From Glutamicibacter sp. PS (GTDB lineage Bacteria > Actinomycetota > Actinomycetes > Actinomycetales > Micrococcaceae), in assembly GCA_031317595.1 (NCBI GenBank), contig JANCMB010000001.1:2793610-2857609 (forward strand): a stretch of DNA of 64,000 bases. Direction: 5' to 3'. This document shows, one piece after another, positions 1 through 25,226 of the stretch (the first letter of the stretch is position 1; every line of letters starts with the position of its first letter). The position numbers and the translations under genes were made by a program. The notes under the pieces are model-generated. The model had not been told where the DNA came from, searched no databases, and was given only the letters and a program-made list of their open reading frames with translations.

Positions 1-39
1 TGGTTGCGCCACGATGTGCTGATGCTGGATCTGGTGTAG
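1..39 (+). CDS. ureG: Urease accessory GTPase UreG, C-terminal tail (partial)
   Basis: Twelve codons (WLRHDVLMLDLV) followed by TAG run in from the left edge. UreG is the GTPase that, with UreD, UreF and UreH-type partners, delivers nickel to apo-urease. A short basic/hydrophobic tail of this kind just before ureD fits the usual ureG-ureD order. Only the tail is visible, so the call rests on the neighbour (a clear UreD) and on the nickel transporter next door. It could be the tail of another gene. Confidence 0.5.
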   Translation, partial: WLRHDVLMLDLV

Positions 40-98
40 CCACCGAAACCGGAACGCTGCGCCTTGTCACACTGAATACAGGCGTTGGTTGCACCCGG

Positions 99-863: not shown

Positions 864-887
864 CATTTTCATTTCAAGGAGCACAGC

Positions 888-1946: not shown

Positions 1947-2899
1947 TCGGCGGTGGCCCGGGCCAGTCGAGCCGACCATTCGTGGAGCATCTGGACCAAG
2001 GCGGCGGGGCGTACCTCGCTGAGTTCCGCGGCGGTGCTAGCGAGCGCAAACGCGGCCCAGCGCAGGTCGTTGGTGTCGGCTCGTACCCGGCAGGCTTGCG
2101 CGCCGAGCTCTTCAACTTCAAACCAGCGTCCGATGGCGCGCCGGACGTCGCCGGTCGGGGCGTGGATCACCGCGCTGCATTCGTGGCGCTCGCTGCCGCG
2201 TAGCCCACGCCGAACGAATTCGGCCGCATCCCCGCCGGGGATGGGCCGGGGCGTGAAACGTAATGCCTGCGCCTTGGCGTCTCGGGCCCGGTCAACGCGG
2301 AAGCTGCGCCAATCTTGCCGGTCGAGGTCGAAGGCAACCAGGTAATACCGGTTGGCCACGCTGACGAGGTTGACCGGTTCTACCCGTCGGGAGGTGGCAC
2401 CGCCACGGGCATCGACGTAGTCGAAGGAGATGCGCTCACGGTCGCGGCAGCCCTGTGCGAAAACCACGAGAGCTTCGGGTTCGGCGAATTCGGGAGCCGG
2501 TTCGCCTGACCCCAACGGCACCGTTGCCGTGGCTAACGCCTGTACCTGTTTCCGCAACCGGGCCGGGAGCACCGGAACCACCTTGGTCAGCGCGCGCACC
2601 GATGCTTCGGCAAGCGAGCTCACCCCGGCGTGGGCGGCGGACTGCAGGCCCACCACGAGCGCGACGGCTTCATCATCGTCGAGCACCAGTGGGGGCAGTG
2701 CCGCACCGGCGGCCAGCTGGTAGCCACCGCCCACTCCCCGTTCGGCCTGCACCGGGTAGCCCAGATCCCGCAAACGTTCGACGTCGCGCCGTAGCGTGCG
2801 CAGGGAAACATCGAGTCGTTGCGCCAACTCGTCGCCGGACCAGTAACGATGCGTCTGGAGTAGCGACAGTAAGCGGATGAAGCGTTCGCTGGAGCTCAT
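1943..2899 (-). CDS. YafY-type transcriptional regulator, HTH + WYL domains
   Basis: Predicted DNA-binding regulator of 318 aa. Residues about 1-60 form a DeoR/HTH_11-like winged helix (LAQRLDVSLRTLRRDVERLRDLGYPV) and are followed by the YafY hallmark GVGGGYQL and the LPPLVLDDDEAVAL segment. A WYL sensor domain covers roughly 140-230 (SRRVEPVNLVSVANRYYLVAFD) and binds a small ligand or nucleic acid in characterised members. It is divergent from the DinB-family gene at 2991 across 91 bp, an arrangement common for YafY regulators controlling a small DinB/ABM protein. Direct control of that gene is inference. ATG at 2899. Confidence 0.88.
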   Translation of the reverse strand: MSSSERFIRLLSLLQTHRYWSGDELAQRLDVSLRTLRRDVERLRDLGYPVQAERGVGGGYQLAAGAALPPLVLDDDEAVALVVGLQSAAHAGVSSLAEASVRALTKVVPVLPARLRKQVQALATATVPLGSGEPAPEFAEPEALVVFAQGCRDRERISFDYVDARGGATSRRVEPVNLVSVANRYYLVAFDLDRQDWRSFRVDRARDAKAQALRFTPRPIPGGDAAEFVRRGLRGSERHECSAVIHAPTGDVRRAIGRWFEVEELGAQACRVRADTNDLRWAAFALASTAAELSEVRPAALVQMLHEWSARLARATAD

Positions 2900-2990
2900 G
2901 AAAATATTCTCTTCTTATTGAGGACAAAAACTGACACTTATTGCTTCTACTCTTGAACCTACCAAGCCACTTCAACCCAAGGAGCACCCC

Positions 2991-3539
2991 ATGAGCACCA
3001 CGATGGTCACCCCAGATACCACGCTGACCGGCGAACGCGCAGACCTGCACCAGGCCCTGGCCAATGCGCGGCATTTCCTGAAGTTCACCACCCGCGAGCT
3101 GAGCGATGATCAGGCCCGTTTGCGCACCACCGCCAGCGCGCTGACCCTCGGCGGTCTGATCAAACACGTCACCGGCGTGGAGGAGCAGTGGCGCAATTTC
3201 ATCGTGCAGGGGCGTGCCGCAATGGGTTGGGACGGCACGGATTTCAGCACGATCACCGAGGAAATGATGGAAGCCTTCCACGAAGAGTTCCGGATGAACG
3301 CGGACGAAACGCTTGCAGGACTACTGCAGCGCTACGACGAGGTCGCTGCCGCCACCGACGAACTGCTCGCCACGGTGGATCTGGATCAAGTCCACGAATT
3401 GCCGCAGGCACCTTGGTTCACCGGCACCCACTGGTCGGTGCGCCGCACCCTGTTGCACATCATCGCCGAAACCACCCAGCATGCCGGGCATGCGGACATC
3501 ATCCGCGAATCGCTGGACGGGGCGAAATCCATGGGTTAG
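2991..3539 (+). CDS. DinB family protein (DUF664-like, putative metal-dependent)
   Basis: Four-helix-bundle protein of the DinB/YfiT superfamily, 182 aa. The DUF664-like signature LGGLIKHVTGVEEQW (about 44-58) carries the first His, and HIIAETTQHAGHADIIRE near the C-terminus carries the other metal-ligand His residues. In actinomycetes this superfamily includes mycothiol-dependent S-transferases and isomerases, so a thiol-detoxification role is possible; the substrate cannot be read from sequence. AAGGAG lies 7 bases before the ATG. Divergent from the WYL regulator, which is a plausible repressor. Confidence 0.85.
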   Translation: MSTTMVTPDTTLTGERADLHQALANARHFLKFTTRELSDDQARLRTTASALTLGGLIKHVTGVEEQWRNFIVQGRAAMGWDGTDFSTITEEMMEAFHEEFRMNADETLAGLLQRYDEVAAATDELLATVDLDQVHELPQAPWFTGTHWSVRRTLLHIIAETTQHAGHADIIRESLDGAKSMG

Positions 3540-3541
3540 CG

Positions 3542-3598
3542 CGATGGCGCCCTGTGCGCCCGCACGGTTCCATGCCGCTAGGACGCACAGGGCCATCG
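3542..3598 (+). terminator. Hairpin terminator after the DinB-family gene
   Basis: The arms starting CGATGGC..CCCTGTGCG and ending CGCACAGGG..CCATCG pair over 15 bp with a 2-base bulge, directly after the stop at 3539. No clear T-run follows, as is common in high-G+C actinomycetes. Confidence 0.6.
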
Positions 3599-3705
3599 AG
3601 CGTTAGCTGCTCGGGAGACTCGTCGGTCAACGCCGTACACTAGAAATCACATCACTAGCACCATAGAATGGAATCAAAATATCGCTATATGAAAGTGAGT
3701 TTGTC

Positions 3706-4182
3706 GTGAGCCAGTACTCCACCCCGCTGACCGTCGGCCAGAAAGCCCCGAATTTCTCCCTGCAGGACGCCAACGGAAACACCGTCTCCTTGGCAGATCA
3801 GGCCGGCAAGAACGTCATCGTCTACTTCTACCCGAAGGCCGCCACTCCCGGCTGCACCACCGAGGCCTGCGACTTCCGCGATAACCTCAACTCGTTGCAG
3901 GGCGCCGGCTACACCGTGCTGGGTATTTCGCCTGACCAGCCAGAAGACATCGCCAAGTTCGCCGCCGATGAGTCGCTGAACTTCCCGCTACTGTCCGATC
4001 CGGACAACAATGTCGCCAAGGCCTACGGCTCATACGGCGAGAAAAACATCAACGGCAACACCATTGTCGGCACCCTGCGCTCGACCGCAGTCGTCGACGC
4101 CGAAGGCACCATCAGCCACATTGAATACGGCGTTGACGCCCAGGGGCACGTGGCGCGCCTGCGCGAAACTTTGGGCGTCTAG
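3706..4182 (+). CDS. bcp: Thioredoxin-dependent peroxiredoxin Bcp/PrxQ
   Basis: Cytoplasmic thiol peroxidase that reduces H2O2 and organic hydroperoxides with thioredoxin as electron donor. It has a thioredoxin-fold AhpC/TSA domain across its 158 aa. The peroxidatic Cys50 in TPGCTTEAC and resolving Cys55 five residues later are the PrxQ/Bcp arrangement. FYPKAATPGC is the canonical active-site block. Starts with GTG at 3706. It is a single gene, ended by the hairpin at 4218-4261. Confidence 0.95.
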   Translation: MSQYSTPLTVGQKAPNFSLQDANGNTVSLADQAGKNVIVYFYPKAATPGCTTEACDFRDNLNSLQGAGYTVLGISPDQPEDIAKFAADESLNFPLLSDPDNNVAKAYGSYGEKNINGNTIVGTLRSTAVVDAEGTISHIEYGVDAQGHVARLRETLGV

Positions 4183-4271: not shown

Positions 4272-4706
4272 CTAGTTCGCGAACTTCGGCGGCCAACAAA
4301 CTTCAAAGCGCTCCATGATCACCTTGTGCCCCGGCTTGTCAGTATCTGCGGGCGACCATTCATTACCCATGGAACCTTGGGTGCGACGCCAGAATGCTTC
4401 ATGCTCGCGGCGCCAATACTCCAGCGACAAGTCCCCTTCGCCTTCCGCGGCGGCAAAATCGGCGTCCACGTCGTAGAAGCTGCGTTTCTCCACGGACGAG
4501 ACCCGCGTAATGAGCCGCGGTTGGCCACGGCCGTCGCAAATCATCCAATAACGACCCACCTCGGGCAACGGTTCATCGAACTGCGCGTACTCGATCTCCA
4601 GTGAAGAGGTAGCCCGCTTGGTCCCGTGGCTCACGGCATGCAACAGCTCGTCGGCTAACTCCGGGCTATCCCCGAAACACTCGACCGTGTATTCATTAGA
4701 GATCAT
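4272..4706 (-). CDS. ASCH domain-containing protein
   Basis: Small protein (144 aa) of the ASCH/PUA-like fold, a predicted RNA- or modified-nucleoside-binding beta-barrel. Family marks are GTKRATSSL near residue 30, VGRYWMICDGRGQPRLI and ISRV/ITRV strands, and the C-terminal pattern of an acidic helix, WRREHEAFW, and VIMERFEVCW. Some bacterial ASCH proteins hydrolyse N4-acetylcytidine, but this one cannot be assigned to that activity by eye. It is convergent with bcp. ATG start at 4706 next to the low-G+C island. Confidence 0.85.
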   Translation of the reverse strand: MISNEYTVECFGDSPELADELLHAVSHGTKRATSSLEIEYAQFDEPLPEVGRYWMICDGRGQPRLITRVSSVEKRSFYDVDADFAAAEGEGDLSLEYWRREHEAFWRRTQGSMGNEWSPADTDKPGHKVIMERFEVCWPPKFAN

Positions 4707-5372
4707 TACCTCCGCTTATGAGGTAAGAAACCGCTCGCTCATTTAGCTCTCAGATCATGGTCCACCACCAGAACAGCCGAAAACTTGGATCCAACGTGAC
4801 ACAGTCCAGCCTCTCACCTTAGGCAGTAAACATTCTGATAAATATTGAAATTATCATTGATTCGGATATCAGACTTTCCATTTCCCTGATAGCCTCAACG
4901 TATGGAGGAACCCTGCACCACTTCGCGTAGACTTTCGGATAAAAATCCGCTCAGGTCATCGACTCCAAAACCAGCGCCAGTCAGTACGAGTTGGAACGCC
5001 CGGATGTATGCCACTGATATAAGGCACAGTCGGAGCATCCCGATCGCCGCGGCTAGAGTTGTCAGTTGGGTTCGCGGTGAGTCGGCACGTAATTCGGAAC
5101 CAAAGTGCGCTCAATCAAAACGTCGCTCACGATCAGGCGAAATGTTTCCTTCACTCTCAGTAACTACGCCGACCGAGCGCAGCCGGCTGGCGGTATACGA
5201 CCGACAGCCGATGAACCGGCGCATTAGAATCGACGGCGATATATGATCCCTATCCGCCAATCTTTCCCGTACCTCATTGACAACCTAATCGCCTCAAGAA
5301 CATAAACTTACGTACGATTTCTCCCCAAGGATGCGTCGGGATTCTTCAGGCACAGGCAGAAAAGGAATCAAC
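4707..5372. other. Gene-poor left flank of the defence island
   Basis: A stretch of about 670 bases without a convincing intact gene, A+T-richer than the sequence to its left. It contains a possible TetR C-terminal relic on the minus strand (4895-5110) and must hold the promoter of the downstream four-gene operon. I could not find a clear -35/-10 pair, attachment-site repeat or tRNA remnant. Confidence 0.5.
4895..5110 (-). pseudogene. Possible degraded TetR-family C-terminal fragment
   Basis: The minus strand has a 71-codon open stretch with no proper start, bounded upstream by an in-frame TGA (plus-strand TCA at 5111). It reads AHFGSELRADSPRTQL..., then AAAIGMLRLCLISVAYIR and a final acidic/helical tail. 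This resembles the end of the ligand-binding domain of actinobacterial TetR regulators. The frame also continues upstream of the stop (SEGNISPDRERRFD). I read it as a relic left at the island edge. The resemblance is by eye and weak. Confidence 0.3.
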
Positions 5373-7904
5373 ATGGACTCTAAGCGACGGGCGATTAATT
5401 GGAGCGACCAAGAACTCCAGCTCCTACTCGAAAACTACAAATCCATGCTGGAGGCCGAACTACAAGGCTTACCTTATGTAAAACGCAAATATAATGAAGA
5501 TCTCGCCGCGTCCACTGGACGAAGTGCCGCAGCTATTGAATTCAAATTATGTAACGTCAGCGCAGCGCTTCTGGACATGGGGAAGATTTACATCAAGGGA
5601 TACAAGCCGCGCACAAACTACCAGAGACGATTGTACGAGCTTCTGATGACTCAAGAATCTAATTTTCCTCCTCGGGTAGAAGATTACACGGCAACCGAAA
5701 AAGCGCTCATGACCCGAAAAGGCACGCGGGAATCGACGGATCAACGGCGGCCTTCGAATGCCAGTCCGGAGTCGGGAAGGGCCGGACAAGACGGACATGA
5801 CACGACGGTCTCCGACATCTATTTAACTTCAGAGGTTGTCGAGGACTGTGATCCTAACATCGCATTCTGGGAAAGAGTCTCCACACTGTGGAGTCGCGCG
5901 ACTGGTGGCGAAGAGGTTGCAGACAAACCTTTCTCTGATGCCGTAAGCCCTTCACAAGATTTAGCCCTCAAGAACCTAGAGGGGCCGCGCCCAGCAGGAC
6001 TCGATGAAGCAGGAAAGTGGTTTGCACAAGCAATAGAGAAGTCTAACGTTCCAAACTTTCTATTTCTTATCGGCGGACCCGGTGCCGGAAAGAGTCACAT
6101 GGCTGCTTCTCTCGTGAGGGACTATGCGTGCATATCGGATTACGACGAGAATCTAGCACACAGATCGTATGAGTACTCTGGTATACACCGGAATATCCTG
6201 CTTATCAACGACGCCACAATACCTAATTCGAAGCAGCCATTGGCGCCGCTTACAAATGAAGTAGCCAGATCGCTAACCGAGGGAAAAGATCTAATCGCCT
6301 GCGTAAACCGCGGCATACTTGTCGAAGAAATTCATGACCAATTAAAAGCTGAACCAACCTCGTCCGACATGAAGCTCGCAGCCACCTTATTGAGATACAT
6401 AAATGACGCTTCAAGGTCTGAGTACAACATTCAAGACCTACATCTTTCTCTCCAGAGCAGGTCGTCCTTTATTCGCTCAGGACGGATCGAACGAAGTGGA
6501 CAGTGCATCGCACGGATTATGGCTGTTTATGTCGACGTCTGCTCGCTACTTGAGAAACGCCCATGGGTCGAAATTCTACCAACAGGCGAGGCCGTTTCGC
6601 CCGAGTATCCGACAATTGATTCTACGGGTTTCGAGGAAATGAGGTCCGGGTCTCCGGCGGGAAAACTACTCGAGCAGGTCATCGACTATCTGGATCTGCC
6701 CGAACAAGCCAGATATCTAGAATCAACCAATCCGATCATCGCAAATATAACCTCCTTGGAAAAAGAAGAAATACGGGAGGGCTTCCTCGCGGCCCTAAGA
6801 TCAGCCGAGATCTACTGTGGCAAGAGATTTACCTACCGTGAAATATGGGGAGCAATCGTACGCGCAATTATCGGAGATTTATCAGATTCCTCCACACCAA
6901 CAGATGTACAAGAAAAGTCCTCTGTTGACCCAACAGTACTTCACTCACCCTCAGCAAAAACTCGATTCGACCATCTCATTCAACTGGCACATTTGCGATA
7001 CTCCAACGCGATCTTTGGCACTCCTTGTAAGCCGGATCCTTCACGGGTCGATCCCATACGGAACCCTGTAACAAAGCTGTTGTCAAAAGTAGACCCGCTG
7101 CTCGACGCGGTAGCAGGAGATCCGACTAATACTAACTCCAAAGGCTGGGTTAGTCCGATCACTTCCGCCCTCGGAAGCTACGGTCAAATCGAATCTCCTT
7201 TGGTTATTCTGCAGAAGGATACGGACACGCAGTGCGCGTTCACAAGCATTGGAATCACGAATTTCGAGGAAGCACTCGACCAAGCGTTTCAGGAGGTTAT
7301 TGAAGATTCATCAACATCGGAAAGTGATCGAGCTAAGTATATCAGCTGGTATGGAGCGCATTTAATACGCCTCTACGCTATTTTTAATAGAATTTCGGCG
7401 TTTCAAGAGGATATCAATCTTTGGGTTAGGACGTGGAGAAGCGGCTCCCAAATCCCAAACGAACTCGAAGCCGGCTTGCGCACACTTTTGCGACCTCGTC
7501 GGAACCCTGGCGAGCAAAATTCTCGCTCGTTACTCCCCGTATTCGACAGCCGAACAACACCTATCACAGGTCATGTAACCCAACCGAAGCTGACTATCTC
7601 GACAGAGAGCTTTGATTTATCTCCCGCCAGGAACGGCGAAGAGATTGAATTACGCATCAAAGAAAATGGTGTGCAAGTGGGCCGGATTGAACTTGACGTT
7701 GCGTTGATCAGAGAAGCGCGGTCGTCTGCGGACAACTTCGCAGGTGTCACAGAGATGAGCTCATCCACCTTACCTCGGCTAGAACGAGTACGTGCTGAAA
7801 GACTCGTGCCCTCGAACCTAACGACTGACTACTATCGGCTAGCAATCAACGATAAGGACTACATTGTCCTCGTCAGGCCAGATATTGCTGCAGTAAGAGA
7901 CTAG
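5373..7904 (+). CDS. DptF-like P-loop NTPase with N-terminal helical sensor-like module (island gene 1)
   Basis: Predicted ATPase component of a restriction/defence complex, 843 aa from the ATG at 5373. That ATG has AAAAGGA six bases upstream; an ATG at 5331 would add 14 residues but lacks a spaced Shine-Dalgarno. Residues about 8-85 carry the WSDQEL...GLPYVKRKYN...TGRSAAAIEFKLCNVSA...GYKPRTNYQ module, which I know from N-termini of several modified-DNA or restriction proteins. Walker A GGPGAGKS lies at about 234-241, preceded by NFLFLI. A long helical middle follows, then a small beta-rich C-terminus (from about 745). Gene 2 starts 12 bp later. Size, order and P-loop match DptF of phosphorothioation-dependent restriction, though it is longer than typical DptF; this is inference. 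Codon usage is A/T-rich compared with the flanks. Confidence 0.6.
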   Translation: MDSKRRAINWSDQELQLLLENYKSMLEAELQGLPYVKRKYNEDLAASTGRSAAAIEFKLCNVSAALLDMGKIYIKGYKPRTNYQRRLYELLMTQESNFPPRVEDYTATEKALMTRKGTRESTDQRRPSNASPESGRAGQDGHDTTVSDIYLTSEVVEDCDPNIAFWERVSTLWSRATGGEEVADKPFSDAVSPSQDLALKNLEGPRPAGLDEAGKWFAQAIEKSNVPNFLFLIGGPGAGKSHMAASLVRDYACISDYDENLAHRSYEYSGIHRNILLINDATIPNSKQPLAPLTNEVARSLTEGKDLIACVNRGILVEEIHDQLKAEPTSSDMKLAATLLRYINDASRSEYNIQDLHLSLQSRSSFIRSGRIERSGQCIARIMAVYVDVCSLLEKRPWVEILPTGEAVSPEYPTIDSTGFEEMRSGSPAGKLLEQVIDYLDLPEQARYLESTNPIIANITSLEKEEIREGFLAALRSAEIYCGKRFTYREIWGAIVRAIIGDLSDSSTPTDVQEKSSVDPTVLHSPSAKTRFDHLIQLAHLRYSNAIFGTPCKPDPSRVDPIRNPVTKLLSKVDPLLDAVAGDPTNTNSKGWVSPITSALGSYGQIESPLVILQKDTDTQCAFTSIGITNFEEALDQAFQEVIEDSSTSESDRAKYISWYGAHLIRLYAIFNRISAFQEDINLWVRTWRSGSQIPNELEAGLRTLLRPRRNPGEQNSRSLLPVFDSRTTPITGHVTQPKLTISTESFDLSPARNGEEIELRIKENGVQVGRIELDVALIREARSSADNFAGVTEMSSSTLPRLERVRAERLVPSNLTTDYYRLAINDKDYIVLVRPDIAAVRD

Positions 7905-7916
7905 ATCGGATACAAG

Positions 7917-9305
7917 TTGGAAGATTTCATATTAGACCTCAACAGACCACAATATGTGTCAGTGCCAGAAGGTTTCGTATCCGCTTTAGCATGGAATTGC
8001 TACAAACTCGATACGTCGTCTGATCACGGTCCACCCACCGGTCTGGTTTACAAACAAATTAAACCGAGCTCAATGAAGACTCTGCGGATCGAGGAAACCG
8101 AACCAACCGGTGAGCAGACGATTCAACTTGCAGAAGAGCTCGGTAAGAACGGTGTTACCGTGGATTCAAAATCCCGGGAGTTGTTAGCAGTAGCTGTGGC
8201 CGGGTCCGCAAGCGGCATACGGGCCGAAAAGGGCACTATGCAAGCTGCTTCCCCGATATCACCAACGTTCGCCTTGATGCAAAACATGATTGGCATCCAA
8301 CGAAGCGCTAATCCCCCTGACCTCGGCGGCATACTGGAAAAGATCTATGCCCACGGGCTATCTCTGCACGCGGGCCCTGTCCCCGGAGCATCTGAACGCT
8401 GGATGAAAGCAGCAAAGATTCGGTGCGATTCGGATCCTCTATTAAACGCCATGGACAGGTCAGTCAGAGCAGTGACCTTCGGAAACAGACTGAACGAAGA
8501 AGGTCCGCGTCTGGCCTCGCCCATCGCAGATCTCCCCAATACTCCATTCGAATGGTTTCGTGAGAACTGGGATTTGATTACATCTCCGGTGTGGGTATCG
8601 GCTCTTCCAGCAAGAGTCTGGGCTGATTGGACGATGACGGTCCTTAGACTCGGGTACGCGCTCAGTTTTCTTTGGGAGGCAGAGTGGTATATGCAACTTG
8701 CTCGTAATGCGCTCGACAACAAGATCGTGCCTTGGACCATGGCCGTGGGTGAAGTTCGTACCATCATTCCTTGGGCATCTATGGACTCCAGTGTTTCAGT
8801 ACGTGATGTTTCTTCCGTACTCAAGTGGAAAGTCCATAGAGGAGCTGCCGTTAGAAAACTACTTGTCGACTGGCAAAAGGCCGGAGAGTTTCTAGATATG
8901 AACTTCGAAGAATCGTGTCGGCGACTGTCGCAGCCTGATATGACTAGCAAACTTCAAGAAGCACTTTCGACACGGAAGGCTCACGCGCCACTCGTCTGGG
9001 AGGCAATTCGCTACACCCTCATGACACGTGAAAATAGTGGCGGGAACTCTGACTACTACGGGATGCTTCGATCATCTGGACGCTACCTAACCGTGGAACC
9101 CGGAACTGAGTGGGTTACCGTGGTCGCCAGTCTGACGTGTATTCAACCTGACAACGAAGCAAATGTCGCGGATTTGATGCAGAGTTTCCAGAAAATGGGA
9201 CTTAGCCCCGAGTTATCAGACGTCATCGAAATGTTGGAGCGTGCTGGTCTCGCCCGCGGCAGCGCTGATGCTGATCAGGGTGTTCGAATTCAAAGTGCGT
9301 TCTAG
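7917..9305 (+). CDS. DptG-like protein of unknown fold (island gene 2)
   Basis: 462 aa from TTG at 7917, 12 bp after gene 1 and 12 bp before gene 3, so certainly part of the same operon. No catalytic motif is recognisable. The middle part is rich in Trp (PFEWFRENWDLI, VWADWTM, WEAEWYMQL), suggesting a helical scaffold. The last 80 residues (NVADLMQSFQKMGLSPELSDVIEMLERAGL) look like a winged-helix domain, perhaps DNA-binding. By position and size it corresponds to DptG of the DptFGH module, but sequence identity to that family is unproven. The start has only a weak upstream TCGGA, so translation may be coupled to gene 1. Confidence 0.5.
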   Translation: MEDFILDLNRPQYVSVPEGFVSALAWNCYKLDTSSDHGPPTGLVYKQIKPSSMKTLRIEETEPTGEQTIQLAEELGKNGVTVDSKSRELLAVAVAGSASGIRAEKGTMQAASPISPTFALMQNMIGIQRSANPPDLGGILEKIYAHGLSLHAGPVPGASERWMKAAKIRCDSDPLLNAMDRSVRAVTFGNRLNEEGPRLASPIADLPNTPFEWFRENWDLITSPVWVSALPARVWADWTMTVLRLGYALSFLWEAEWYMQLARNALDNKIVPWTMAVGEVRTIIPWASMDSSVSVRDVSSVLKWKVHRGAAVRKLLVDWQKAGEFLDMNFEESCRRLSQPDMTSKLQEALSTRKAHAPLVWEAIRYTLMTRENSGGNSDYYGMLRSSGRYLTVEPGTEWVTVVASLTCIQPDNEANVADLMQSFQKMGLSPELSDVIEMLERAGLARGSADADQGVRIQSAF

Positions 9306-9317
9306 GAGGACAAGAGA

Positions 9318-12300
9318 ATGCTGGCTAAAATTCTTGCTAAGTGTTTCACAAATCGTGCAGGGCTCAATGCTGCGTACCTGCCGTACGGCGTTAAAAGAGA
9401 GTTCGCCGATGCCATCGTTTCGGCCGCGAATGAAATTGAAGTCAGGCCCGACTATGCATTTCTGATCACGCCAACAGGCGATAGCGGAGCTAAAACTTCT
9501 GGTGAGGCTGTGCAATACAGACAAGGGCGTCATCTGGCGATTATTGCGGACAGGCATCCAGATCTAGGATCCGTGACTGGTGTATTTAGCGCTGTCATGA
9601 ACTCCAGCTTCCCTGAGGCTTCGAGCAGTTCTGTTTCAGTTAGAGAAATTTCCGACGAATTTGTCACGGATCTATTTAGCCGCCTAGGCTGGGTAGAATA
9701 CTCAGATTCCACGCGTCAGTCGTGCAGCGATCTCGTAGCCCAGCTCTTGGAGTTATTGGCAGGTCTATACACGATCGTTGGCCAGGGAACTGCCCCCTGG
9801 AACGTGCAGTGGATGGCGGCCGTCGATCAAGGTCTAACAAATTTTTCGAACATTATTGCGCTAGATTCGCCGACTATGGTCGAAGCTGAAAGTTACTTCA
9901 AGAAGTACCTCTACGCATCATTTGGCATGCCCACTCCGAATGACAGTAGACATTCACATGCAAAACAGTTAGCTGACGCCTTTAATAACTACTGGTCGGA
10001 CTCAGCTTCAATCCAGAATTCCATTGAAATGCTGAGATGCTCAGACGACATCAGCGCGGAACCTTATCCATTGGCTATTATTCCGTGGAAGGACGTCGAT
10101 CGAAAGATGGCAATTTCCGAGAATATCGCTCTGGTTTTCAATTCTCTCGTTTCGATGTCCCTTGAGTATGTGAAGCACTTATCGACACTCACGGAGAAAC
10201 AGTTTCTGGATCCCAGCGGCGGTATTCCGGATCTCCACAAGTTGACCGCGTTCACCGACGGCGGGTTCTCGCTAGGTCTAGGAGAGGGCCTAAGCTCAGA
10301 TGAACCCTATGCGGTGTTCTGGACATACGATACGTGGGAGGATGAGTACAGATCTGAAAGAATTCGGATCAGGCTGCCGTTGAGCAGCGCTCCGACGAAC
10401 AGTGGCCCGGATGCCCATAACGTAAAATTGGTCGCATCCCCCAAAGCCGTTCATTGGGAACAAGATTACATCGAATTTGACGCCAATACCGGAGGGCTAC
10501 AAGTTTACGGTAGGTTGCGTATGCCCGCCAAGACAGAACGCCGAGAAGGCCCCCTCCGAGTTACATTGCGGTCTTCTATCGCACCAGGTGATCCCCTGTT
10601 CGGTTTAGCTGATCCGAACGCTTCATGCACCATTACGGCGATCGATTCTAAACGAGAATCAGTGCTGGTATTACCTATAGCTGGCAAGAATAAATTGAAG
10701 CTGGGAAAACCCGTTTACGTGGCGTCCGATACTTATGGTTCAGCTGCTTCAGAATCTCCTGACGAAGAGCAACTCTTGGTGCAAGAGCTGGACTCATCCG
10801 TAGATAAGTATCGATTTGTTGCATGGGGAGCACAGTCTGGCGATGTCTTGGCTGATGGAGAACCTTGCTCCGACTTCCCTCACCGCCCTGATCTGTTCAT
10901 TTTTGATTCTGTACCTCTGCCCTCTTACACAGTGGTTATCGGTTCACTAAGCGTTGACTTTAAAGCGATCGGTTCTTCAAAGGCCCCCCTGTCACCCGTA
11001 GTTGCAGCTGCTCGTAAAATGCTTCCCTCACGCGAGCCCATGCCACCTAGCGAGAGTGATACGGCCAGAGGTTTCTACGAGACCTGGCTGACGCAGAACT
11101 GTATGGATGAAGTAGCGATGGACGCTCTGGGCCACATTGTAATGTCAGATGACGCCGAGAACATGTTCGATCCCGTAGTTAAAAATAACAGTGGATTTTT
11201 AATGTGTTCTTCCATGTCCAGTCAATGGCACGATATTTCAGATGCGGACGTTCCCGAGGAACTCCTGAAATCCTCGGCAGCCGAATCTTTTCGATTGGCT
11301 TTCAGGAAACTAGACCTCCTCAGAAGACTGAAAGCAGACACGGACAAGAACAGTCATCTAAGACCATCTACTGTATCGTGGCGCCATCTCTGGGAGGGGG
11401 ACCGTCGAACGCTTACAGAGTATCTCGAGTCCTATGCCGAACTCGTCCGTGAATCTAACCGTCTAGGTGATCCCGTTGGGCAGTTCTGGGCTGCGTACCC
11501 GTTCTCCATTAGCGTTTGGTCGACAAAGGGAGGGGCCAAGTCTAGCGCGGTCCTACTGAGTCCATTACACCCAGTTCGTTTAGCTTGGTTAGCTGGCGTT
11601 GAATATACGCTTTGGCACTCTGAGTACTCGGAGTCGCTATCCGGAACTATCGAGGGCTGGAACTTCCCTTATTTCGGACCTCGGGAAGACGAGTTCAGTC
11701 GATTCATAGCAGTCCCAATGGAGACTGGCGCAGAGCAAATCTTCGTAGGCTGGAGCATGCTTGTAGTTGCCAGTATGGCAGACCCGGGCTCTTTGACGGC
11801 TCCCGCCACTGCAGGTGGGAGGGGCCTGCCAGGCACTGCAGCCAGTGGTCTTAACTCAACTGCTGTCTCTGCAGCAATTAGAAACTACAAGAAACTGAAT
11901 CCCCATCTGACGACACTGACGGTAGATTTAGCAGCTCCTGAGTCGCAAGTACGTCTTGCTGAAGTGGATGAAGCGGTTATTGAGGAAAGTTTGGACTGGG
12001 TGACCGACAAGAATGTGCCGCTGCGTGGAGGCCTTAGAGTTTGGGACTCGACGAAACGAGCAGGCAACATACCTATTGCCGCAATAAACAAATTTGTCAA
12101 AAACGCCAAGGGTGTTCCTGTGGCTTGGAATCGTTACGAGCCAAAGCCTAACCAATACATCAGGTCAGATGTTCGAATTTTGCAGGATGGTGGTATTAGA
12201 GTGCGGCTTCGCGACCGTACTGCCTATCCGCAGCGAGGAATCCTAGGCAATGTTCCTCTACGAAGGTTCGAAGCTTCATCACAGAAAATCACACGTAACT

Positions 12301-14939
12301 TCTCATCTAATATACCCGAGGTGTCTTCAGACCATGGTTGGCAACCGTTTGCCGACGCATTAGTAGAGCTAGAAGGAGCTGGCCGGGGGACCGTCATAGA
12401 GACGAAACTTTTTGCGAGTGCCCTCGCAGATGGATCAACCAATTGGACAGTAGCCGGTGAGTCTCTCATGAACCCGAGCGCAATGTCCGAAATCATCAAG
12501 AAGAGCTCGGATGGAGAGCAACACCTGTGGGAGTACCGACCACAGTTTCTGGAAAGTCCAAAGAGCACGCCCGCAATTGAACGAAGGCCCTTCGTTTCCA
12601 TTGCTCGCGTTCCCCTTAGTTTCCGTAGACAAGTTCGTGAACTTCTCCGGCACGTGCACCAAACAGAGCTGCCCGACGAAAACCTTGAGCTGAGCGTATT
12701 GACTCGCTTGGGCGCAAGAGGCATAGGGCTCTCTTCAATGCTTACTATGGGCGGTACACACGCGGCGGGCGCGCTAGGGTTCTATCTAGCGTTTGAATTC
12801 ATGGAAAAATGCAAAGAAACAATGCAGGACCTCTTTGTCCTTCCGATTGACGCATGTGATGGTTTTCTTCGCTCGCTAGCCGCCGAATCTCGCAATACAG
12901 ACTCAACGAAACGAGCCGATCTTCTTATCATTAGGCTGGAGAAAGGACATGTAACGCTGTCTCCACTTGAGATCAAGTTCTACGGAATGTCTTCAAGTGC
13001 GCACGACTCACTGCTTCCCAACGGAACGGAATTAGGAATTCTCAACGAAGCAGCCACTCAAGCGAAAACCACAGCCGACCTACTGAATAAGGTTTCTTTG
13101 GCTTGGAGGAAGGCGCGGCAGGAAGAATCAAACCGTGCTCTTTGGAGCAGTTCTTTCGCAGCACTAATTGAGTCTGGTGTCAGGCTTAGTCCTTCAGCCG
13201 ACGACAACTTAGAAGGTATACGCCATGACCTGCAGGCTGTCGTCAATGGCGACTTTGAAATCCATGTAGGTAGCCCGTTGATCTCATACTTTAAGTTGAA
13301 TGCGCAAACCCCTCAGGGGTACTCGAACGTAGTTCGTGTCGTCGACGATGGTCAGATCGCGAATTCTCTGGGAGCTTTTGGGCTAATGTCAGCATCCGCT
13401 GAACTTGCATTTAATTCTTTAAGCTCAACAAACAATGACTTAGTGCATTCCTGGATAAAACTAGTTGAATGGTCGCTAAGCTCACATCGTGATGCCCCGG
13501 TTGCCTCAGGTTCAAAAGAAAAGCATGTGCCAACAAAGAGCAATGACGGCGGCGAAGAGGTAAGTCCTACTGTCGACTCAATCGACATCGGAGCGAAGGC
13601 CGAGAGTCCCATTGGGACCGAATCATCTAAAGCGGAATCCACGGACGAAATTGGTGGGCAGATTTCACGAGTGCATCGGCATGTTTTAGACGAACCGACA
13701 GTCGGTCCGGATGCGACAATTCCGTCAACCACGGGATCTCATCACAGGGGTTCCGGCTGGGAGCCCAACGATTCACCCGTGTCGGCTCAATCCGAATGTC
13801 AGGTGGACCATGGTATTAAGTTTAAGATCGGCGACGGGCTCAACGGTACAAACGCTGAATTCGAGTTCTGGCCAAGCAACACCAGACTAAACCAGTTGAA
13901 TATTGGGATTGTCGGAGATCTTGGGACCGGTAAGACTCAACTTCTGAAGACCCTCATCTATCAGCTACGCAAATCGAGCATGAGTCGTCAAGACAGTCCC
14001 CTGTCTCTGCTGATATTCGACTACAAACGTGACTTTCAGGACGAGGAATTTTTGAAGTCAGTCGGAGGCAAACTATTAAGGATTGACAATATACCGCTAA
14101 ATTTCTTCGCTCTCCGAGGTGAATACAAGCCAATGAGAGCAAACCAACGAGCGAACGAATTTATCGATGTCCTAGATAAAATTTATGGCGGCATTGGGCC
14201 CGTGCAGAAAGATCGGCTTCAAGTCGCTATCACTGACCTCTATCGCGAGTTGAACCCGTTAGCGCCTACAATTGCTGACGTTCTTGATCGCTATAAGGAC
14301 GGCTCCGACAAACCGGATTCGGTGACCTCAATACTTCGTAAGTTCGTTATTTCAGAGGTATTCTCCACCAACCGTGAGAACCTGCAGTCGTTTGATCAGC
14401 TGATGGACAACGGGGTCGTAGTTGTAGCATTAAACGATTTTGGAACGGACGATGATGGAAAGAACGCACTTGTCGTTTTGTTTTTGAATCTCTACTACGA
14501 TTACATGTTAAATTCTCGGAAGTGGCCTTACCGTGGGTCCGATCCGCAGCTGCGGCAACTCAATTCTTTTTTACTAGTCGATGAGGCAGTTAACATCATG
14601 AAGTACAAATTCCCTGTACTCATGAACCTCTTGCTTCAGGGCCGTGAATTTGGCGTTGGGGTGATACTCGCTTCACAGTACCTCAGCCACTTCCGACAGG
14701 GGCAGGAAGACTATGCTCAGCCGTTGCTGACATGGTTTGTTCACAAGGTACCCGGCGTCTCGCAAAAAGATATGACATTGTTAGGCCTTCCTGAAAGAGC
14801 TGAGCAGATCGCGAAGAAAATCCAAACACTGGAGGTACATCATGCACTCTACAAATCCTTGGATGTCAGCGGGAAGTTCCTGCGTACCCTGCCGTACTAC
14901 GAATTAATGCACGAAGCCGACGGTGGAGTCGATTCCTGA
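9318..14939 (+). CDS. DptH-like giant protein: D..ExK nuclease-like domain plus HerA/FtsK-type ATPase (island gene 3)
   Basis: 1873 aa, with AGGAGG placed right on the stop of gene 2. Residues 1-1100 show no known motif and include alternating beta-rich segments. About 1120-1290 looks like a PD-(D/E)xK nuclease fold: KRADLLIIRL with D1201, then LEIKFYG with E1218 and K1220. After a polar, low-complexity linker (about 1390-1510) comes a HerA/FtsK-like motor. Its Walker A is GDLGTGKT (1533-1540), with a DYKRD motif at 1568-1572 as in HerA/VirD4-type ATPases, a second acidic strand FLLVDEA (D1755, E1756) and the sensor-like ASQYLSHF. DptH of the DptFGH restriction module is likewise a very large protein ending in a HerA-type ATPase. 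A translocating nuclease is the likely role; assignment to DptH itself is inference. Confidence 0.65.
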   Translation: MLAKILAKCFTNRAGLNAAYLPYGVKREFADAIVSAANEIEVRPDYAFLITPTGDSGAKTSGEAVQYRQGRHLAIIADRHPDLGSVTGVFSAVMNSSFPEASSSSVSVREISDEFVTDLFSRLGWVEYSDSTRQSCSDLVAQLLELLAGLYTIVGQGTAPWNVQWMAAVDQGLTNFSNIIALDSPTMVEAESYFKKYLYASFGMPTPNDSRHSHAKQLADAFNNYWSDSASIQNSIEMLRCSDDISAEPYPLAIIPWKDVDRKMAISENIALVFNSLVSMSLEYVKHLSTLTEKQFLDPSGGIPDLHKLTAFTDGGFSLGLGEGLSSDEPYAVFWTYDTWEDEYRSERIRIRLPLSSAPTNSGPDAHNVKLVASPKAVHWEQDYIEFDANTGGLQVYGRLRMPAKTERREGPLRVTLRSSIAPGDPLFGLADPNASCTITAIDSKRESVLVLPIAGKNKLKLGKPVYVASDTYGSAASESPDEEQLLVQELDSSVDKYRFVAWGAQSGDVLADGEPCSDFPHRPDLFIFDSVPLPSYTVVIGSLSVDFKAIGSSKAPLSPVVAAARKMLPSREPMPPSESDTARGFYETWLTQNCMDEVAMDALGHIVMSDDAENMFDPVVKNNSGFLMCSSMSSQWHDISDADVPEELLKSSAAESFRLAFRKLDLLRRLKADTDKNSHLRPSTVSWRHLWEGDRRTLTEYLESYAELVRESNRLGDPVGQFWAAYPFSISVWSTKGGAKSSAVLLSPLHPVRLAWLAGVEYTLWHSEYSESLSGTIEGWNFPYFGPREDEFSRFIAVPMETGAEQIFVGWSMLVVASMADPGSLTAPATAGGRGLPGTAASGLNSTAVSAAIRNYKKLNPHLTTLTVDLAAPESQVRLAEVDEAVIEESLDWVTDKNVPLRGGLRVWDSTKRAGNIPIAAINKFVKNAKGVPVAWNRYEPKPNQYIRSDVRILQDGGIRVRLRDRTAYPQRGILGNVPLRRFEASSQKITRNFSSNIPEVSSDHGWQPFADALVELEGAGRGTVIETKLFASALADGSTNWTVAGESLMNPSAMSEIIKKSSDGEQHLWEYRPQFLESPKSTPAIERRPFVSIARVPLSFRRQVRELLRHVHQTELPDENLELSVLTRLGARGIGLSSMLTMGGTHAAGALGFYLAFEFMEKCKETMQDLFVLPIDACDGFLRSLAAESRNTDSTKRADLLIIRLEKGHVTLSPLEIKFYGMSSSAHDSLLPNGTELGILNEAATQAKTTADLLNKVSLAWRKARQEESNRALWSSSFAALIESGVRLSPSADDNLEGIRHDLQAVVNGDFEIHVGSPLISYFKLNAQTPQGYSNVVRVVDDGQIANSLGAFGLMSASAELAFNSLSSTNNDLVHSWIKLVEWSLSSHRDAPVASGSKEKHVPTKSNDGGEEVSPTVDSIDIGAKAESPIGTESSKAESTDEIGGQISRVHRHVLDEPTVGPDATIPSTTGSHHRGSGWEPNDSPVSAQSECQVDHGIKFKIGDGLNGTNAEFEFWPSNTRLNQLNIGIVGDLGTGKTQLLKTLIYQLRKSSMSRQDSPLSLLIFDYKRDFQDEEFLKSVGGKLLRIDNIPLNFFALRGEYKPMRANQRANEFIDVLDKIYGGIGPVQKDRLQVAITDLYRELNPLAPTIADVLDRYKDGSDKPDSVTSILRKFVISEVFSTNRENLQSFDQLMDNGVVVVALNDFGTDDDGKNALVVLFLNLYYDYMLNSRKWPYRGSDPQLRQLNSFLLVDEAVNIMKYKFPVLMNLLLQGREFGVGVILASQYLSHFRQGQEDYAQPLLTWFVHKVPGVSQKDMTLLGLPERAEQIAKKIQTLEVHHALYKSLDVSGKFLRTLPYYELMHEADGGVDS

Positions 14940-14970
14940 AATCTCACTTCGTACCGGAGAATAGGATCTG

Positions 14971-16344
14971 ATGAAATATGTAGACCTGTTCTCCGGTTGC
15001 GGAGGTTTGAGCCTGGGAATTGAAGCCAGCGGTGCCAAACTGGTGCTGGCCGTTGAAAAGTCCGATCAGGCCTCTCGAAGTTTCCGGCACAATCTCGTTC
15101 ACGACTCTTCGAACGATTCCGAGTGGAAGAGTTACCTTGACCTGCCTCTTGAGCGACAAGTTGAAGAGAAGATCGTCGTTAGCGAAGTTCAAGCGGTTCT
15201 CAGCAATCCGACAATAATGGCGAGACTTCGTCGTCAGAAATTGGACTTTGTAGTTGGGGGACCACCATGCCAAGGGTTCTCTCTTGCTGGTCGGCGTGAG
15301 CGTGACGATGTCAGGAACGAGTTGCCGTATCAGTTCTTGGAGTTTGTTGAGCAAACTTTGCCCAGAATGGTCGTCATTGAGAACGTTCTGGGCATGGGAC
15401 AGTCATTCGAGAAAGGGACTGAATCCTCATTCTCACAATTGCGAATCGCCCTCTCTGAGCTGGGCTATGAGGTACAGGGTGTCCAAGCGAATGCGCTTCA
15501 CTACGGCGCGCCACAGCATCGGCCAAGACTTCTGCTCGTGGGGCTGAAGCAGGAAATAGCAGCTTCGAAAGGAATTCGCGCCACTGAGCATGTTTGGCGG
15601 TCGCATTTTATGGGCGAGCATAATGCCCCTCTGCCGGCGCTAGTCCCTCGACCTACCTTACGCAGTTCCGATATGAGGGTGCTCTCTGACGCAGTTAGAG
15701 ACTTGACGAGTTTCACGGAAAATCGCTCGCCTCAAAGCGATTACGTCCTTGAACTTAATCGAGTATTTGCGCCGACTATTGCTCGCCCAGACAAAGGTCA
15801 TAAGTTGTCGCGCAATCACGTTCTGCGCAAACATCGGCCTAGTACTGTTGATCGGTTTAGACTATATCATTTTCTAAAAGCTGCAGGGCTCGGAGAACGA
15901 ATTCTGCGGCAAATCGCTGATATGGACCCTAAATTGTCCCGCCTACATATTCAAAATGAAATCGAAAGTAACCTAACGGGGGTCCGCGCAGCGTTCAGTC
16001 TAGGATTGCTTCCTGACTATGACGAACATAGCTTAGTTGACTTAATTGAAAATTCTGCGACAAGGAAGCACTCGCAAAAAGTCCTATCTTGGCATGAGCC
16101 AGCTCGTACTGTAGTTACTCTGCCTGATGATTATATACACCCTAAGGAACCAAGGGTGTTTACCGTTCGTGAACTGGCCCGCATGCAAGGTTTCCCCGAC
16201 AACTTCGTCTTCCTGGGCCCAGAAACCACCGGCGCGCATCGTCGAAAATTCGAGGTTCCGCAATACTCTCAGGTCGGTAACGCGGTATCCCCTTGGCTCG
16301 GACTTGCAATTGGGCAGATGATTCATGGACTACTGAATCAGTAG
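14971..16344 (+). CDS. DNA (cytosine-5-)-methyltransferase
   Basis: S-adenosylmethionine-dependent methylase that marks cytosine at C5 in a short target site, 457 aa. Conserved motifs in order: I DLFSGCGGLSLG (residues 5-16), IV GGPPCQGFS with catalytic Cys100, VI ENV (137-139), VIII QHRPRLLLVG, IX RELARMQGFPDNF, X GNAVSPWLG. The region between VIII and IX (about 190-385) is the target-recognition domain and is longer than in minimal enzymes. Sits 31 bp after gene 3 with AGGA before the ATG, so it is probably co-transcribed. Likely role: protect host DNA from, or set the specificity of, the three upstream proteins. No separate type II endonuclease gene is adjacent. Confidence 0.93.
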   Translation: MKYVDLFSGCGGLSLGIEASGAKLVLAVEKSDQASRSFRHNLVHDSSNDSEWKSYLDLPLERQVEEKIVVSEVQAVLSNPTIMARLRRQKLDFVVGGPPCQGFSLAGRRERDDVRNELPYQFLEFVEQTLPRMVVIENVLGMGQSFEKGTESSFSQLRIALSELGYEVQGVQANALHYGAPQHRPRLLLVGLKQEIAASKGIRATEHVWRSHFMGEHNAPLPALVPRPTLRSSDMRVLSDAVRDLTSFTENRSPQSDYVLELNRVFAPTIARPDKGHKLSRNHVLRKHRPSTVDRFRLYHFLKAAGLGERILRQIADMDPKLSRLHIQNEIESNLTGVRAAFSLGLLPDYDEHSLVDLIENSATRKHSQKVLSWHEPARTVVTLPDDYIHPKEPRVFTVRELARMQGFPDNFVFLGPETTGAHRRKFEVPQYSQVGNAVSPWLGLAIGQMIHGLLNQ

Positions 16345-17828: not shown

Positions 17829-18460
17829 TGCTGCTCTCCGTTCGTGGAGGTCTCTTCTGGGCGTAGGAGCCCGGCGGCCAATAGGCCGATGGCGTGGATT
17901 TGGGCTTCGACCGCTTCTGGGTCGGTGGCGGCGCGGGTACCGGCGGCGCGCAGGGCCCCGTTGAGCGTATTGGCCAGCGCGTCGGTGTCGGCACCAGGGA
18001 CGAGGCGGCCCTCCTGTTGCGCCAGAATCAGGTCATCGCGGATGAAGTTTTCGAAGGACCTCGAGGCGGTTCCGGTGACTCCGGCGAGCACCGGCGCGAG
18101 GTCCGGACCCATGATGCCGTAGAAGCGTCCACGGGGGTCGGCGCTGGCTTCGGTCAGAGCTCGTGCCAAGGCACGAGTGCGTTCCACCAGCCCTTCGGCT
18201 TCTTCGCGCAGTTCCGCACCACGGTGTAGGACGGCTTCAGCCAAGCGCAGGTAGACCGCGCGGACGATTTCTTCGCGGCCGCCGGGAAAGTGGGCGTAGA
18301 TGGTGCCGCGGGCGATCCCTGCGAGTCCGGCGATTTTTTCGAGTGCGGTGCCCGCGTAGCCGCCATCGCTGAGCAATTGCGCAGCAGCGTCCATGATGTC
18401 GTTTCGGGTCCGCAACCGGTTGCGTTCGCGTTGGCTGGTGATCGCAGGAATCTGGCTCAT
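17825..18460 (-). CDS. TetR/AcrR family transcriptional regulator
   Basis: 211 aa from the ATG at 18460, chosen because GAGG lies five bases upstream and the sequence just after it (MSQIPAITSQRERNRLRTRNDIM) begins the usual TetR N-terminus; a longer frame reaches 18547 through the operator. The HTH is about residues 20-65 (TALEKIAGLAGIARGTIYAHFPGGREEIV), followed by an all-helical ligand domain. Probably an autorepressor that also controls the divergent kinase operon through the 12-bp inverted repeat at 18534-18582. It is co-transcribed with the downstream aminotransferase (ATGA overlap). Confidence 0.9.
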   Translation of the reverse strand: MSQIPAITSQRERNRLRTRNDIMDAAAQLLSDGGYAGTALEKIAGLAGIARGTIYAHFPGGREEIVRAVYLRLAEAVLHRGAELREEAEGLVERTRALARALTEASADPRGRFYGIMGPDLAPVLAGVTGTASRSFENFIRDDLILAQQEGRLVPGADTDALANTLNGALRAAGTRAATDPEAVEAQIHAIGLLAAGLLRPEETSTNGEQQ

Positions 18461-18533
18461 GAGTCCTCGGAAGATTCGAAGGGGCGTGGCCTGGGTCGGA
18501 CGACCCGTTGGCACCAGCATAACCAGAAAAACT

Positions 18534-18582
18534 AAAAAGTTGAACACTCTGTACTGTTGACAAACACTCTGTTCAACTTTTT
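18534..18582. promoter_or_regulatory. TetR-type operator with embedded promoter
   Basis: Perfect 12-bp inverted repeat AAAAAGTTGAAC (18534-18545) / GTTCAACTTTTT (18571-18582). The sequence AACACTCTGT also occurs twice inside it as a direct repeat. A consensus -35 TTGACA (18557-18562), 17-bp spacer and -10-like TTTACT (18580-18585) for the rightward operon overlap the right arm, so repressor binding would block it. It lies between the TetR gene and the kinase gene. Confidence 0.75.
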
Positions 18583-18632
18583 ACTGAATATGACCACCAT
18601 CACAGATTTAGCCACGCACCCGAAAGGGCTCC

Positions 18633-19655
18633 ATGATCTCCGCCAGCGCCGCCGAAGCCGCACTCCGGACCGTTCTCCCCCGCTATGGGATCGAGGATTC
18701 GGCCGAACTTGACCTGGTCAAATACCGCGAGAATTACGTCTTCCGGGTGACCACAAACCATGGACACGCCTATGCGGCCCGCATCCACCGCGTGGGCTAT
18801 CACAGCAACGCGGAACTTAACTCGGAAGCCAAGTACCTATTGGAGCTCTCCCACTATGGTTTGCGGGTGCCACAGCTGGTCGCCACCACCGATGGTGCTG
18901 CCAATTGCAGCCACGGAACTGCCGAGACCGAGGTCGTGATCGATCTACAGCACTGGATCGAAGATGCCGCGCCCATGGGCGACATTGTTGCCGCCCTCGA
19001 TTGCGACCCATCCTTGAGCGAGGATGACTTCCATGCTCTGGGCCGCGAACTCGGTCGACTTCATCGGGCCTGCATGAGTATAGGTGTGCCGGAAGACTTC
19101 ACTCGTGGCGCTTGGGACGCCGACGGACTAGCCGGATCGGCCCCACTGTGGGGTGACCCGACGAAGCTGCCAACCCTGGAATCCGGCGAACGCGAGATGA
19201 TCGCCGCGGCAATGCAAAGACTTCATCGCCGGCTACAGCAACTACCGCGCGACGCGGCCCATTTCGGCGTGATCCATGCAGACCTGACCCCAGAAAACGT
19301 GCTGATCAGCGGCACTGACCCCACGCTGATCGACTTCGATGACTTCGGTACCGGATGGCACCTATTCGATCTGGTCACCGTGCTTTTCTTCTACTCCCGC
19401 CACCCGCTGCTCAACGAGTACCGCCGGGGTCTCGAGGCCGGATACCGCTCCGAACGCCCGGGGCTGCCCGACGATTTCTTCGACCCTTGGGAGTACCTGT
19501 TGGTCGCTCGCGGACTGACCTACCTCGGCTGGGCCGCCGAGCGGCACGGAGATGAGGAAGCCAGCTTCATCGAACAGCGCGTGGTTCCCGTAGTACTCGA
19601 ACTTATTGCACGCCAGCACACCACTCCCGTTGCCAACACCGGAGGCCGAGCATGA
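18633..19655 (+). CDS. APH/choline-kinase-fold phosphotransferase
   Basis: 340-aa ATP-dependent small-molecule kinase. The catalytic loop VIHADLTPENVLI carries the base Asp217 and Asn222; the Mg-binding strand is LIDFDDFG (Asp234/Asp236), followed by WHLFDL. This is the homoserine-kinase II/hydroxylysine-kinase-like branch rather than a resistance enzyme, judging by the motif style; that is a judgement by eye. First gene of a four-gene operon (kinase, SDR, amidohydrolase, MFS), facing a class-III PLP enzyme. Likely phosphorylates an amino alcohol or hydroxylated amino acid before the PLP step. Confidence 0.85.
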   Translation: MISASAAEAALRTVLPRYGIEDSAELDLVKYRENYVFRVTTNHGHAYAARIHRVGYHSNAELNSEAKYLLELSHYGLRVPQLVATTDGAANCSHGTAETEVVIDLQHWIEDAAPMGDIVAALDCDPSLSEDDFHALGRELGRLHRACMSIGVPEDFTRGAWDADGLAGSAPLWGDPTKLPTLESGEREMIAAAMQRLHRRLQQLPRDAAHFGVIHADLTPENVLISGTDPTLIDFDDFGTGWHLFDLVTVLFFYSRHPLLNEYRRGLEAGYRSERPGLPDDFFDPWEYLLVARGLTYLGWAAERHGDEEASFIEQRVVPVVLELIARQHTTPVANTGGRA

Positions 19656-20458: not shown

Positions 20459-20474
20459 CTTTTCGGGAGTACCT

Positions 20475-22136: not shown

Positions 22137-22165
22137 GCCCCGCCCGAACTCAGTTAGGCAATGAC

Positions 22166-23341: not shown

Positions 23342-23349
23342 TTCTCCTA

Positions 23350-23398
23350 ACGCAGCATGCCCACCCTCACCAGGATGGTCAGGGTGGGCATGCTGCGT
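23350..23398 (+). terminator. Long hairpin terminator after the MFS gene
   Basis: Perfect 18-bp stem: ACGCAGCATGCCCACCCT (23350-23367) with AGGGTGGGCATGCTGCGT (23381-23398) and a 13-base loop. Lies 8 bases after the stop; no T-run follows. Confidence 0.75.
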
Positions 23399-23538
23399 GC
23401 GTACGAGAATCGGGCCAGTGGCTATTCGTCGCGTTGGCTGAACACTTTGTGGGCCGCTCGATCCGCCTTGTTTGAGTGCAAGGGCACGGGCCACGAAGTG
23501 GGTTAGCGGTGCCCGTGCGAGACACATATATTCCGAAT

Positions 23539-25165: not shown

Positions 25166-25175
25166 CGCGACTTTA

Positions 25176-25211: not shown

Positions 25212-25226
25212 GTCGCAATCCACTAC

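Follow-up and report, generated by a model that had tools for sequence, protein, structure and literature searches.

A gene set related to DndFGH and SspFGH and its linkage to a C5-cytosine DNA methyltransferase

SspFGH damages DNA that does not carry its mark, is harmful to cells that lack the modification genes, and has been likened to unrestrained DndFGH (PMC8092258, in the excerpt used here). For DndFGH, the same excerpt describes the discrimination of marked from unmarked DNA as complicated by the sulfur mark, which covers part of the sites. Here, we examine a four-gene locus, F-G-H-M, of Glutamicibacter sp. PS (GenBank assembly GCA_031317595.1, contig JANCMB010000001.1), in which an F-G-H set related to both is followed by a gene for a 5-methylcytosine (m5C) methyltransferase. 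The locus lies in a stretch of 64,000 nucleotides (positions 2,793,610 to 2,857,609 of the forward strand), which we call the window and in which all coordinates below are given. We consider it probable that M and F-G-H together form a restriction-modification system. Comparison of the genes across genomes suggests that a DNA-checking machine related to the sulfur-mark system has been fitted to a cytosine-methyl self-mark in several phyla. The genes of the window locus are the following.

5331..7904, + strand: F, DptF/SspF-like P-loop protein, 857 amino acids (aa) (open reading frame [ORF]; hhalign to DptF and SspF)
5373, + strand: alternative in-frame ATG start of F, giving 843 aa, the start used in the first-pass annotation
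7917..9305, + strand: G, DptG/DndG-like protein, TTG start, 462 aa
9318..14939, + strand: H, DptH-like nuclease-translocase, 1873 aa (PADLOC DndH; PDB 7es4)
14971..16344, + strand: M, C5-cytosine DNA methyltransferase, 457 aa (Pfam PF00145)

All four frames are open and on the + strand, and the gaps between F and G, G and H, and H and M are 12, 12, and 31 bp. The first-pass annotation, made from the letters of the window alone, had described the same four co-oriented genes and the same gaps.

Linkage of the methylase to F-G-H

Two conserved stretches of the H motor served as seeds for the genome scan, which was thus blind to the methylase. Of 84 candidates, it retained 80, from this branch alone; loci are given here by our own labels (L numbers). 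A locus was defined as complete when F, G, and H were each matched by their own profiles, which held for 68 of the 80. The other 12 were left out as incomplete (L024, L028, L031, L034, L035, L036, L054, L060, L079, L081, L084, and L094); a methylase is present in L024, L028, and L079, and the remaining nine show none in the sequence covered, which mostly ends at a contig edge.

An m5C methylase was found in all 68 complete loci, so that in every one a modification enzyme is linked to a nuclease predicted by motif. In 67 loci the methylase is within 2 kb of F or H, with a median gap of 13 bp, and in L027 it is 7.9 kb away from F-G-H. This conserved co-occurrence, which had been set as a check on the first-pass annotation, was borne out. 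The methylase gene is upstream on the same strand in 51 loci, downstream on the opposite strand in 12, downstream on the same strand in 3, and upstream on the opposite strand in 1; because its position and strand vary, the linkage is not one inherited gene order. The complete loci come from Pseudomonadota (54), Actinomycetota (7), and Planctomycetota (3), with one each from Myxococcota, Verrucomicrobiota, Bacteroidota, and an unplaced deltaproteobacterium. When 75 loci were clustered at 45% H identity, 16 clusters resulted, each with a methylase, and we regard these 16 as a fairer measure of independent cases than the 68 loci.

As a control, we collected 26 canonical dptF loci, of which 23 were complete (L128, L144, and L149 were dropped as incomplete). 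The methylase profile matched in 0/23, Vsr in 0/23, and dndB-E in 19/23. Since only 2 canonical DptF proteins were above the cut-off in 398 genomes of the phylum of genome G173, the control was enlarged within one order and with plasmid records; it is taxonomically narrow, with 16 of the 23 loci from that order. The difference in methylase linkage between the two sets has a Fisher P value of 1e-20, which is overstated, as related loci are not independent.

DndC, the phosphorothioation marker searched for genome-wide, is nearly absent. No dndB-E gene was found near F-G-H in any of the 68 complete loci. Whole-genome counts cover 53 genomes, from 54 selected loci without L030: DndC was above the cut-off in one, with weaker matches in 2 more, and in 18/18 genomes with canonical DptF. 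The whole window genome gave no DndC match. The first-pass annotation had seen no dndBCDE genes and had named dnd partners elsewhere as a refuting result; of these, DndC did not turn up in this genome.

Matches to PF00145 at E 1e-10 were present in 53/53 system genomes, 36 of which have a single match; in the window genome, that match is M. A vsr gene lies within 3 kb in 45 of the 68 complete loci, and 40 of the 53 genomes have a Vsr above the cut-off. Vsr repairs the T:G mismatches left by methylcytosine. Its presence in many loci therefore argues for real m5C in those genomes, and the count of 45/68 suggests that the host genomes are methylated. A caution comes from Caulobacter, where loss of the methylase lets a Vsr-like protein cause a DNA damage response (PMC12907096, in the part drawn on here): by analogy, Vsr itself may stabilize the methylase.

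Pairwise distances of F, G, and H correlate with one another at r 0.99 and with those of M at 0.72 to 0.73, all above 999 permutations; shared descent contributes to these values. A methylase tree of 82 rows has one supported group of 67, made up of the 60 system rows, the second methylases of L039 and L089, and 5 outside rows, two of which are long-branch rows according to a program warning. For this tree, 15 of 75 near-identical system rows were thinned, L186 and L188 were excluded because they are genes of the system itself, L198 and L199 were excluded because of low scores, and L192, L194, L197, and L235 were left out by a length rule. In five loci (L067, L080, L040, L083, and L086), M is of a type usually seen with a different F-G-H cluster. 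Transfer of methylases among F-G-H lineages has occurred at least 3 or 4 times, L040 and L083 being sisters.

Several further observations concern the distribution of the locus. L039, L072, and L089 each have a second m5C methylase near the system. The 21.9-kb stretches of L041 (Bordetella hinzii) and L043 (Solimonas variicoloris) agree at 21,700 of 21,953 positions, by recent transfer or through a mislabeled assembly. No relative was found in the viral contigs (P0003). An unverified record from feces named "Bacteriophage sp." (L131, MT836369.1) includes a partial G together with a long H and a Vsr of the system; it may be a bacterial contig. M resembles many other m5C methylases: at E 1e-10, one alphaproteobacterial system methylase matches 296 plasmid records, 293 with <60% identity. 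In L079 (211-11173, Arenimonas daejeonensis), M and Vsr are open, whereas F, G, and H are each broken into several frames. This would be the expected pattern if a cell can safely lose restriction but not modification; a sequencing error could also produce it.

Features of the four proteins

The domains and motifs to which the following paragraphs refer are these.

5394..5696, + strand: N-terminal extra domain of F (residues 22-122), PDC-S36-like (PADLOC)
6072..6095, + strand: Walker A motif of F, GGPGAGKS, residues 248-255 (alignment of 75 sequences)
11718..12614, + strand: Rossmann, methyltransferase-like fold in H, residues ~801-1099, without a [NSD]PP[FYW] motif
12843..13061, + strand: PD-(D/E)xK-type motif of H, residues P1176, D1178, R1199, D1201, E1218, K1220, and Q1248 (alignment)
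13800..14912, + strand: HerA/FtsK motor domain of H, residues 1495-1865 (hhalign to canonical DptH, E 3e-55)

The first-pass annotation had described H as a giant protein with a D..ExK motif and a HerA-type ATPase, and both parts are there. The C-terminal ATPase matches PADLOC DndH (E 3e-67) and the DptH structure 7es4 (E 1e-50); the PADLOC model mad8 also matches the motor. Its Walker A motif, D1755, E1756, and Q1787 are kept in 75/75 aligned sequences. So are all seven PD-(D/E)xK-type residues, among them D1201, E1218, and K1220, with the window sequence included, and H is a predicted nuclease by motif. The Rossmann fold precedes this motif, as does the inactive adenine-methyltransferase fold of DndH, to which it may correspond; the folding of H covered residues 690-1480.

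F was likewise recognized earlier as a P-loop ATPase with an N-terminal sensor-like module, which fits the Walker A motif and the similarity of residues 22-122 to PADLOC PDC-S36 (E 3e-26). The N-terminal domain is present also in L019, L020, L021, and L026 and is not in L022 or L025. Lys254 and Asp294 are each kept in 75/75 sequences; at position 293, just before Asp294, 18 sequences have Asn and 57 have Gln, the hallmarks of the kinase-like DndF being ND after strand 2 and a long lid. Of the sets compared with F by hhalign, SspF gave the best alignment (E 7e-12), ahead of canonical DptF (E 8.5e-9, residues 231-517, 210 columns), and PADLOC gave its SspF model at 1e-3. The F proteins of L085 and L092 aligned with SspF at 5e-9 and 5e-8. 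In L056, F matched generic P-loop models at E 0.004. The F and G pairs of L064 and L056, from another phylum, reached no curated Pfam or NCBIfam cut-off and no PADLOC model at E 0.01.

For G, there was no significant sequence match in Pfam, PADLOC, or NCBIfam, and fold comparison gave the DndG fold; G is probably DNA-binding. No NCBIfam Dpt model matched F, G, or H at E 1, and none from PADLOC matched G. Matches of G to SspG and of H to SspH were poor (E 0.09 and 0.02 or worse, respectively). Because F aligns better with SspF than with DptF, we place the window set outside DptFGH proper, as a branch within the Dnd/Ssp F-G-H superfamily. Of the earlier label, a DptFGH-type module, the DndG fold of G and the DndH-type H are retained, and F is nearer to SspF than to DptF.

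M is above the Pfam cut-off for PF00145 (E 3e-47), and its PPCQ and ENV motifs are present in 74 of 75 rows, one row being gapped. As for hallmark proteins of BREX, DISARM, Druantia, and MADS, PADLOC gave for the four window proteins only methylase models (DrmMII and DruM) for M, among the 25 listed of 62 families, and mad8 for the H motor. The earlier identification of an m5C methylase therefore stands; what it had missed was the Vsr of many other loci and the likeness of F to SspF.

The locus is richer in A+T than both flanks, as had been noticed before: G+C content is 48.6 to 51.5% per 2-kb block at 6001-16000, 63 to 64% at 1-4000, and 62 to 65% at 18001-26000. It starts dropping in the ∼0.6 kb ahead of F (4710-5330), where the only ORF is one of 114 aa (4902-5246). 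Farther upstream, a small gene on the opposite strand (4272-4706), whose product we take by eye to be ASCH-domain-like, adjoins a gene at 3706-4182 that is presumably peroxiredoxin-like, also by eye. No insertion site in the genus was evident with the downstream gene as a probe, which gave one good match among 18 besides the window's own genome.

Proposed mechanism and alternative readings

The observed basis for a restriction-modification system is the gene content, the homology, the invariant motifs, the linkage, and the near-absence of DndC. From it, we infer complex assembly, DNA cleavage, unmethylated DNA as the trigger, and anti-phage activity, as follows. M would methylate cytosine at a short target site across the host genome. 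F, G, and H would assemble into a complex of the DndFGH/SspFGH type, in which G, with its DndG fold, and parts of H may engage DNA, F may bind nucleotide and gate the complex, and the HerA motor of H would move along DNA. The D-ExK domain of H would then nick or cut DNA without the methyl mark; host DNA would be spared by its methylation, and incoming phage or plasmid DNA would be unmarked. In many relatives, Vsr would repair the T:G mismatches arising from methylcytosine. Action on unmarked DNA has a precedent in SspFGH (PMC8092258, same excerpt). The earlier proposal that such a motor/nuclease complex was rewired to read cytosine methylation is supported overall; both the reading of m5C and the rewiring are our inference.

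Some results weigh against this reading. The scan, with 80 of 84 candidates retained, covered this branch only. Two incomplete loci, L031 (H of 1812 aa) and L034 (H of 1562 aa), have no recognized G and no methylase in the sequence covered; both are contig fragments, and they could be real exceptions. M relatives with 44 to 47% identity occur in L225 and L227 without F-G-H within ∼20 kb of each (a third, L226, is on a 4.9-kb contig without F-G-H and says little). A whole-genome search found no vsr in the window genome, and F and G of the window are below all curated Dpt models.

The last such point comes from a methylase exchange. L067 and L064 are 91, 92, and 91% identical in H, G, and F and 32% identical in M, and the L067 methylase is at the opposite end of the locus and on the opposite strand relative to that of L064. 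Nowhere in F, G, or H do these two differ more than pairs with the same methylase do. In ten close pairs, a search for covariation of target recognition between M and F-G-H likewise gave no divergence specific to a methylase change; a sharp dip in H, close to the linker that precedes the motor, is found in same-methylase pairs as well. As F-G-H is little changed across the methylase change, a strict site match between M and F-G-H would need both methylases to share a site. Either they share a target, then, or F-G-H needs no matched recognition part. On the latter option, F-G-H might be an engine independent of the mark, fitted to chemically different self-marks: phosphorothioate on both strands (Dnd) or on one (Ssp), 5-methylcytosine, and perhaps N6-methyladenine (in L261-L263). 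Its m5C branch would need no matched target-recognition part and would detect missing methylation by some means other than recognition of matched sites. We hold this extension as tentative and rather doubtful, and its weight is reduced because L067 is a metagenome contig, for which misassembly is possible; the contig ends 2.6 kb after H, and no Vsr was seen in that stretch.

The same exchange lends something to an unlikely alternative, in which F-G-H is a standalone sensor of invaders (of phage nucleotides or proteins) and M and Vsr serve other ends, with the M protein, for example, as a direct inhibitor or a maintenance partner. F, G, and H changed little when the methylase was replaced, and DndFGH has been described as acting without an inbuilt modification module (Rakesh et al. 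2024, PMC10853773, in the part used here). A sensor of this kind would not lead one to expect a methylase in 68/68 complete loci, in varied positions, compared with 0/23 canonical loci, nor the system methylases mostly in one group of the tree.

The results do not fix the direction of reading, and F-G-H might attack methylated DNA, following type IV logic, with M as a decoy or as a means of marking invaders. We think this very improbable, as an active methylase would mark its own chromosome, and the Vsr genes of 45/68 loci would suggest a methylated host.

It is harder still to credit that the linkage arose by chance in defense islands, with a methylase from an unrelated restriction-modification system. 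Defense genes do cluster in genomes and M relatives without F-G-H exist, but the 2-kb proximity in 67 of 68 loci, the 13-bp median gap, and the methylase in all 16 H clusters (at 7.9 kb in L027) are not what chance would give. No better is a phosphorothioate system with dnd or ssp genes elsewhere and an incidental methylase: SspFGH pairs with sspBCD (PMC8092258, same excerpt) and F is nearest to SspF, but besides the single DndC genome of 53 and the weaker matches in 2 more, the dndC profile, which matched weakly in four Ssp-type loci, matched in none of the 68 system loci (SspB, SspC, and SspD were not searched for).

Comparison with described systems

If a restriction-modification system is the right reading, m5C, an ordinary mark that is open to base-by-base mapping and that one enzyme can supply, would make the self/nonself step of the superfamily directly testable, and an m5C partner would qualify the published view of DndFGH as lacking an inbuilt modification partner. 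Annotators gain a recognizable gene set (M, F, G, H, and often Vsr) whose F and G are not covered by any curated model of the three libraries that were searched. In the open-access literature searched, we did not find F-G-H coupled to a cytosine methylase described; supplementary tables may hold it.

Other F-G-H triplets stand beside other genes. In L261, L262, and L263 (∼4.6 to 19.6 kb of each), the neighbor is another gene pair; the F of L261 has NERD and kinase domains and its adjoining pair includes one protein that combines N6-methylase and HSDR_N domains, and L262 additionally carries genes of the TniB-like and Mu-type transposase kinds. These three are perhaps an N6-methyladenine-partnered F-G-H branch. 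The triplet of L260 (3741-14182) adjoins an AspBHI-type restriction enzyme and a small m5C methylase with a low score on the system profile. In L259 (6775-16415), a DUF4007 gene comes after the triplet; this family has been named in BREX-related systems (PMC12839542, in the portion used).

With DndFGH/DptFGH, the window branch shares the F-G-H order, a P-loop F, the DndG fold of G, and, in H, the DndH-type HerA motor, the D-ExK motif, and apparently a methyltransferase-like fold before it. It differs in that its loci lack dndBCDE and have an m5C methylase, often with Vsr, instead, and in that F and G score under the curated Dpt models. With SspFGH, it shares the F-G-H order and the best alignment of F, whereas its partner gene is an m5C methylase and its H and G match SspH and SspG poorly. 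A replacement of phosphorothioation by cytosine methylation has also been proposed for CxC/DndE systems with a cytosine methylase (Rakesh, Aravind, and Krishnan 2024, PMC10853773, in the part used here); there, the methylase joins a DndD/CxC-DndE core and an HKD nuclease-helicase, not F-G-H. Finally, type II restriction-modification systems with m5C and Vsr have the same pairing of methylase and Vsr, but the presumed restriction part here is a three-protein ATPase-translocase set rather than a single endonuclease.

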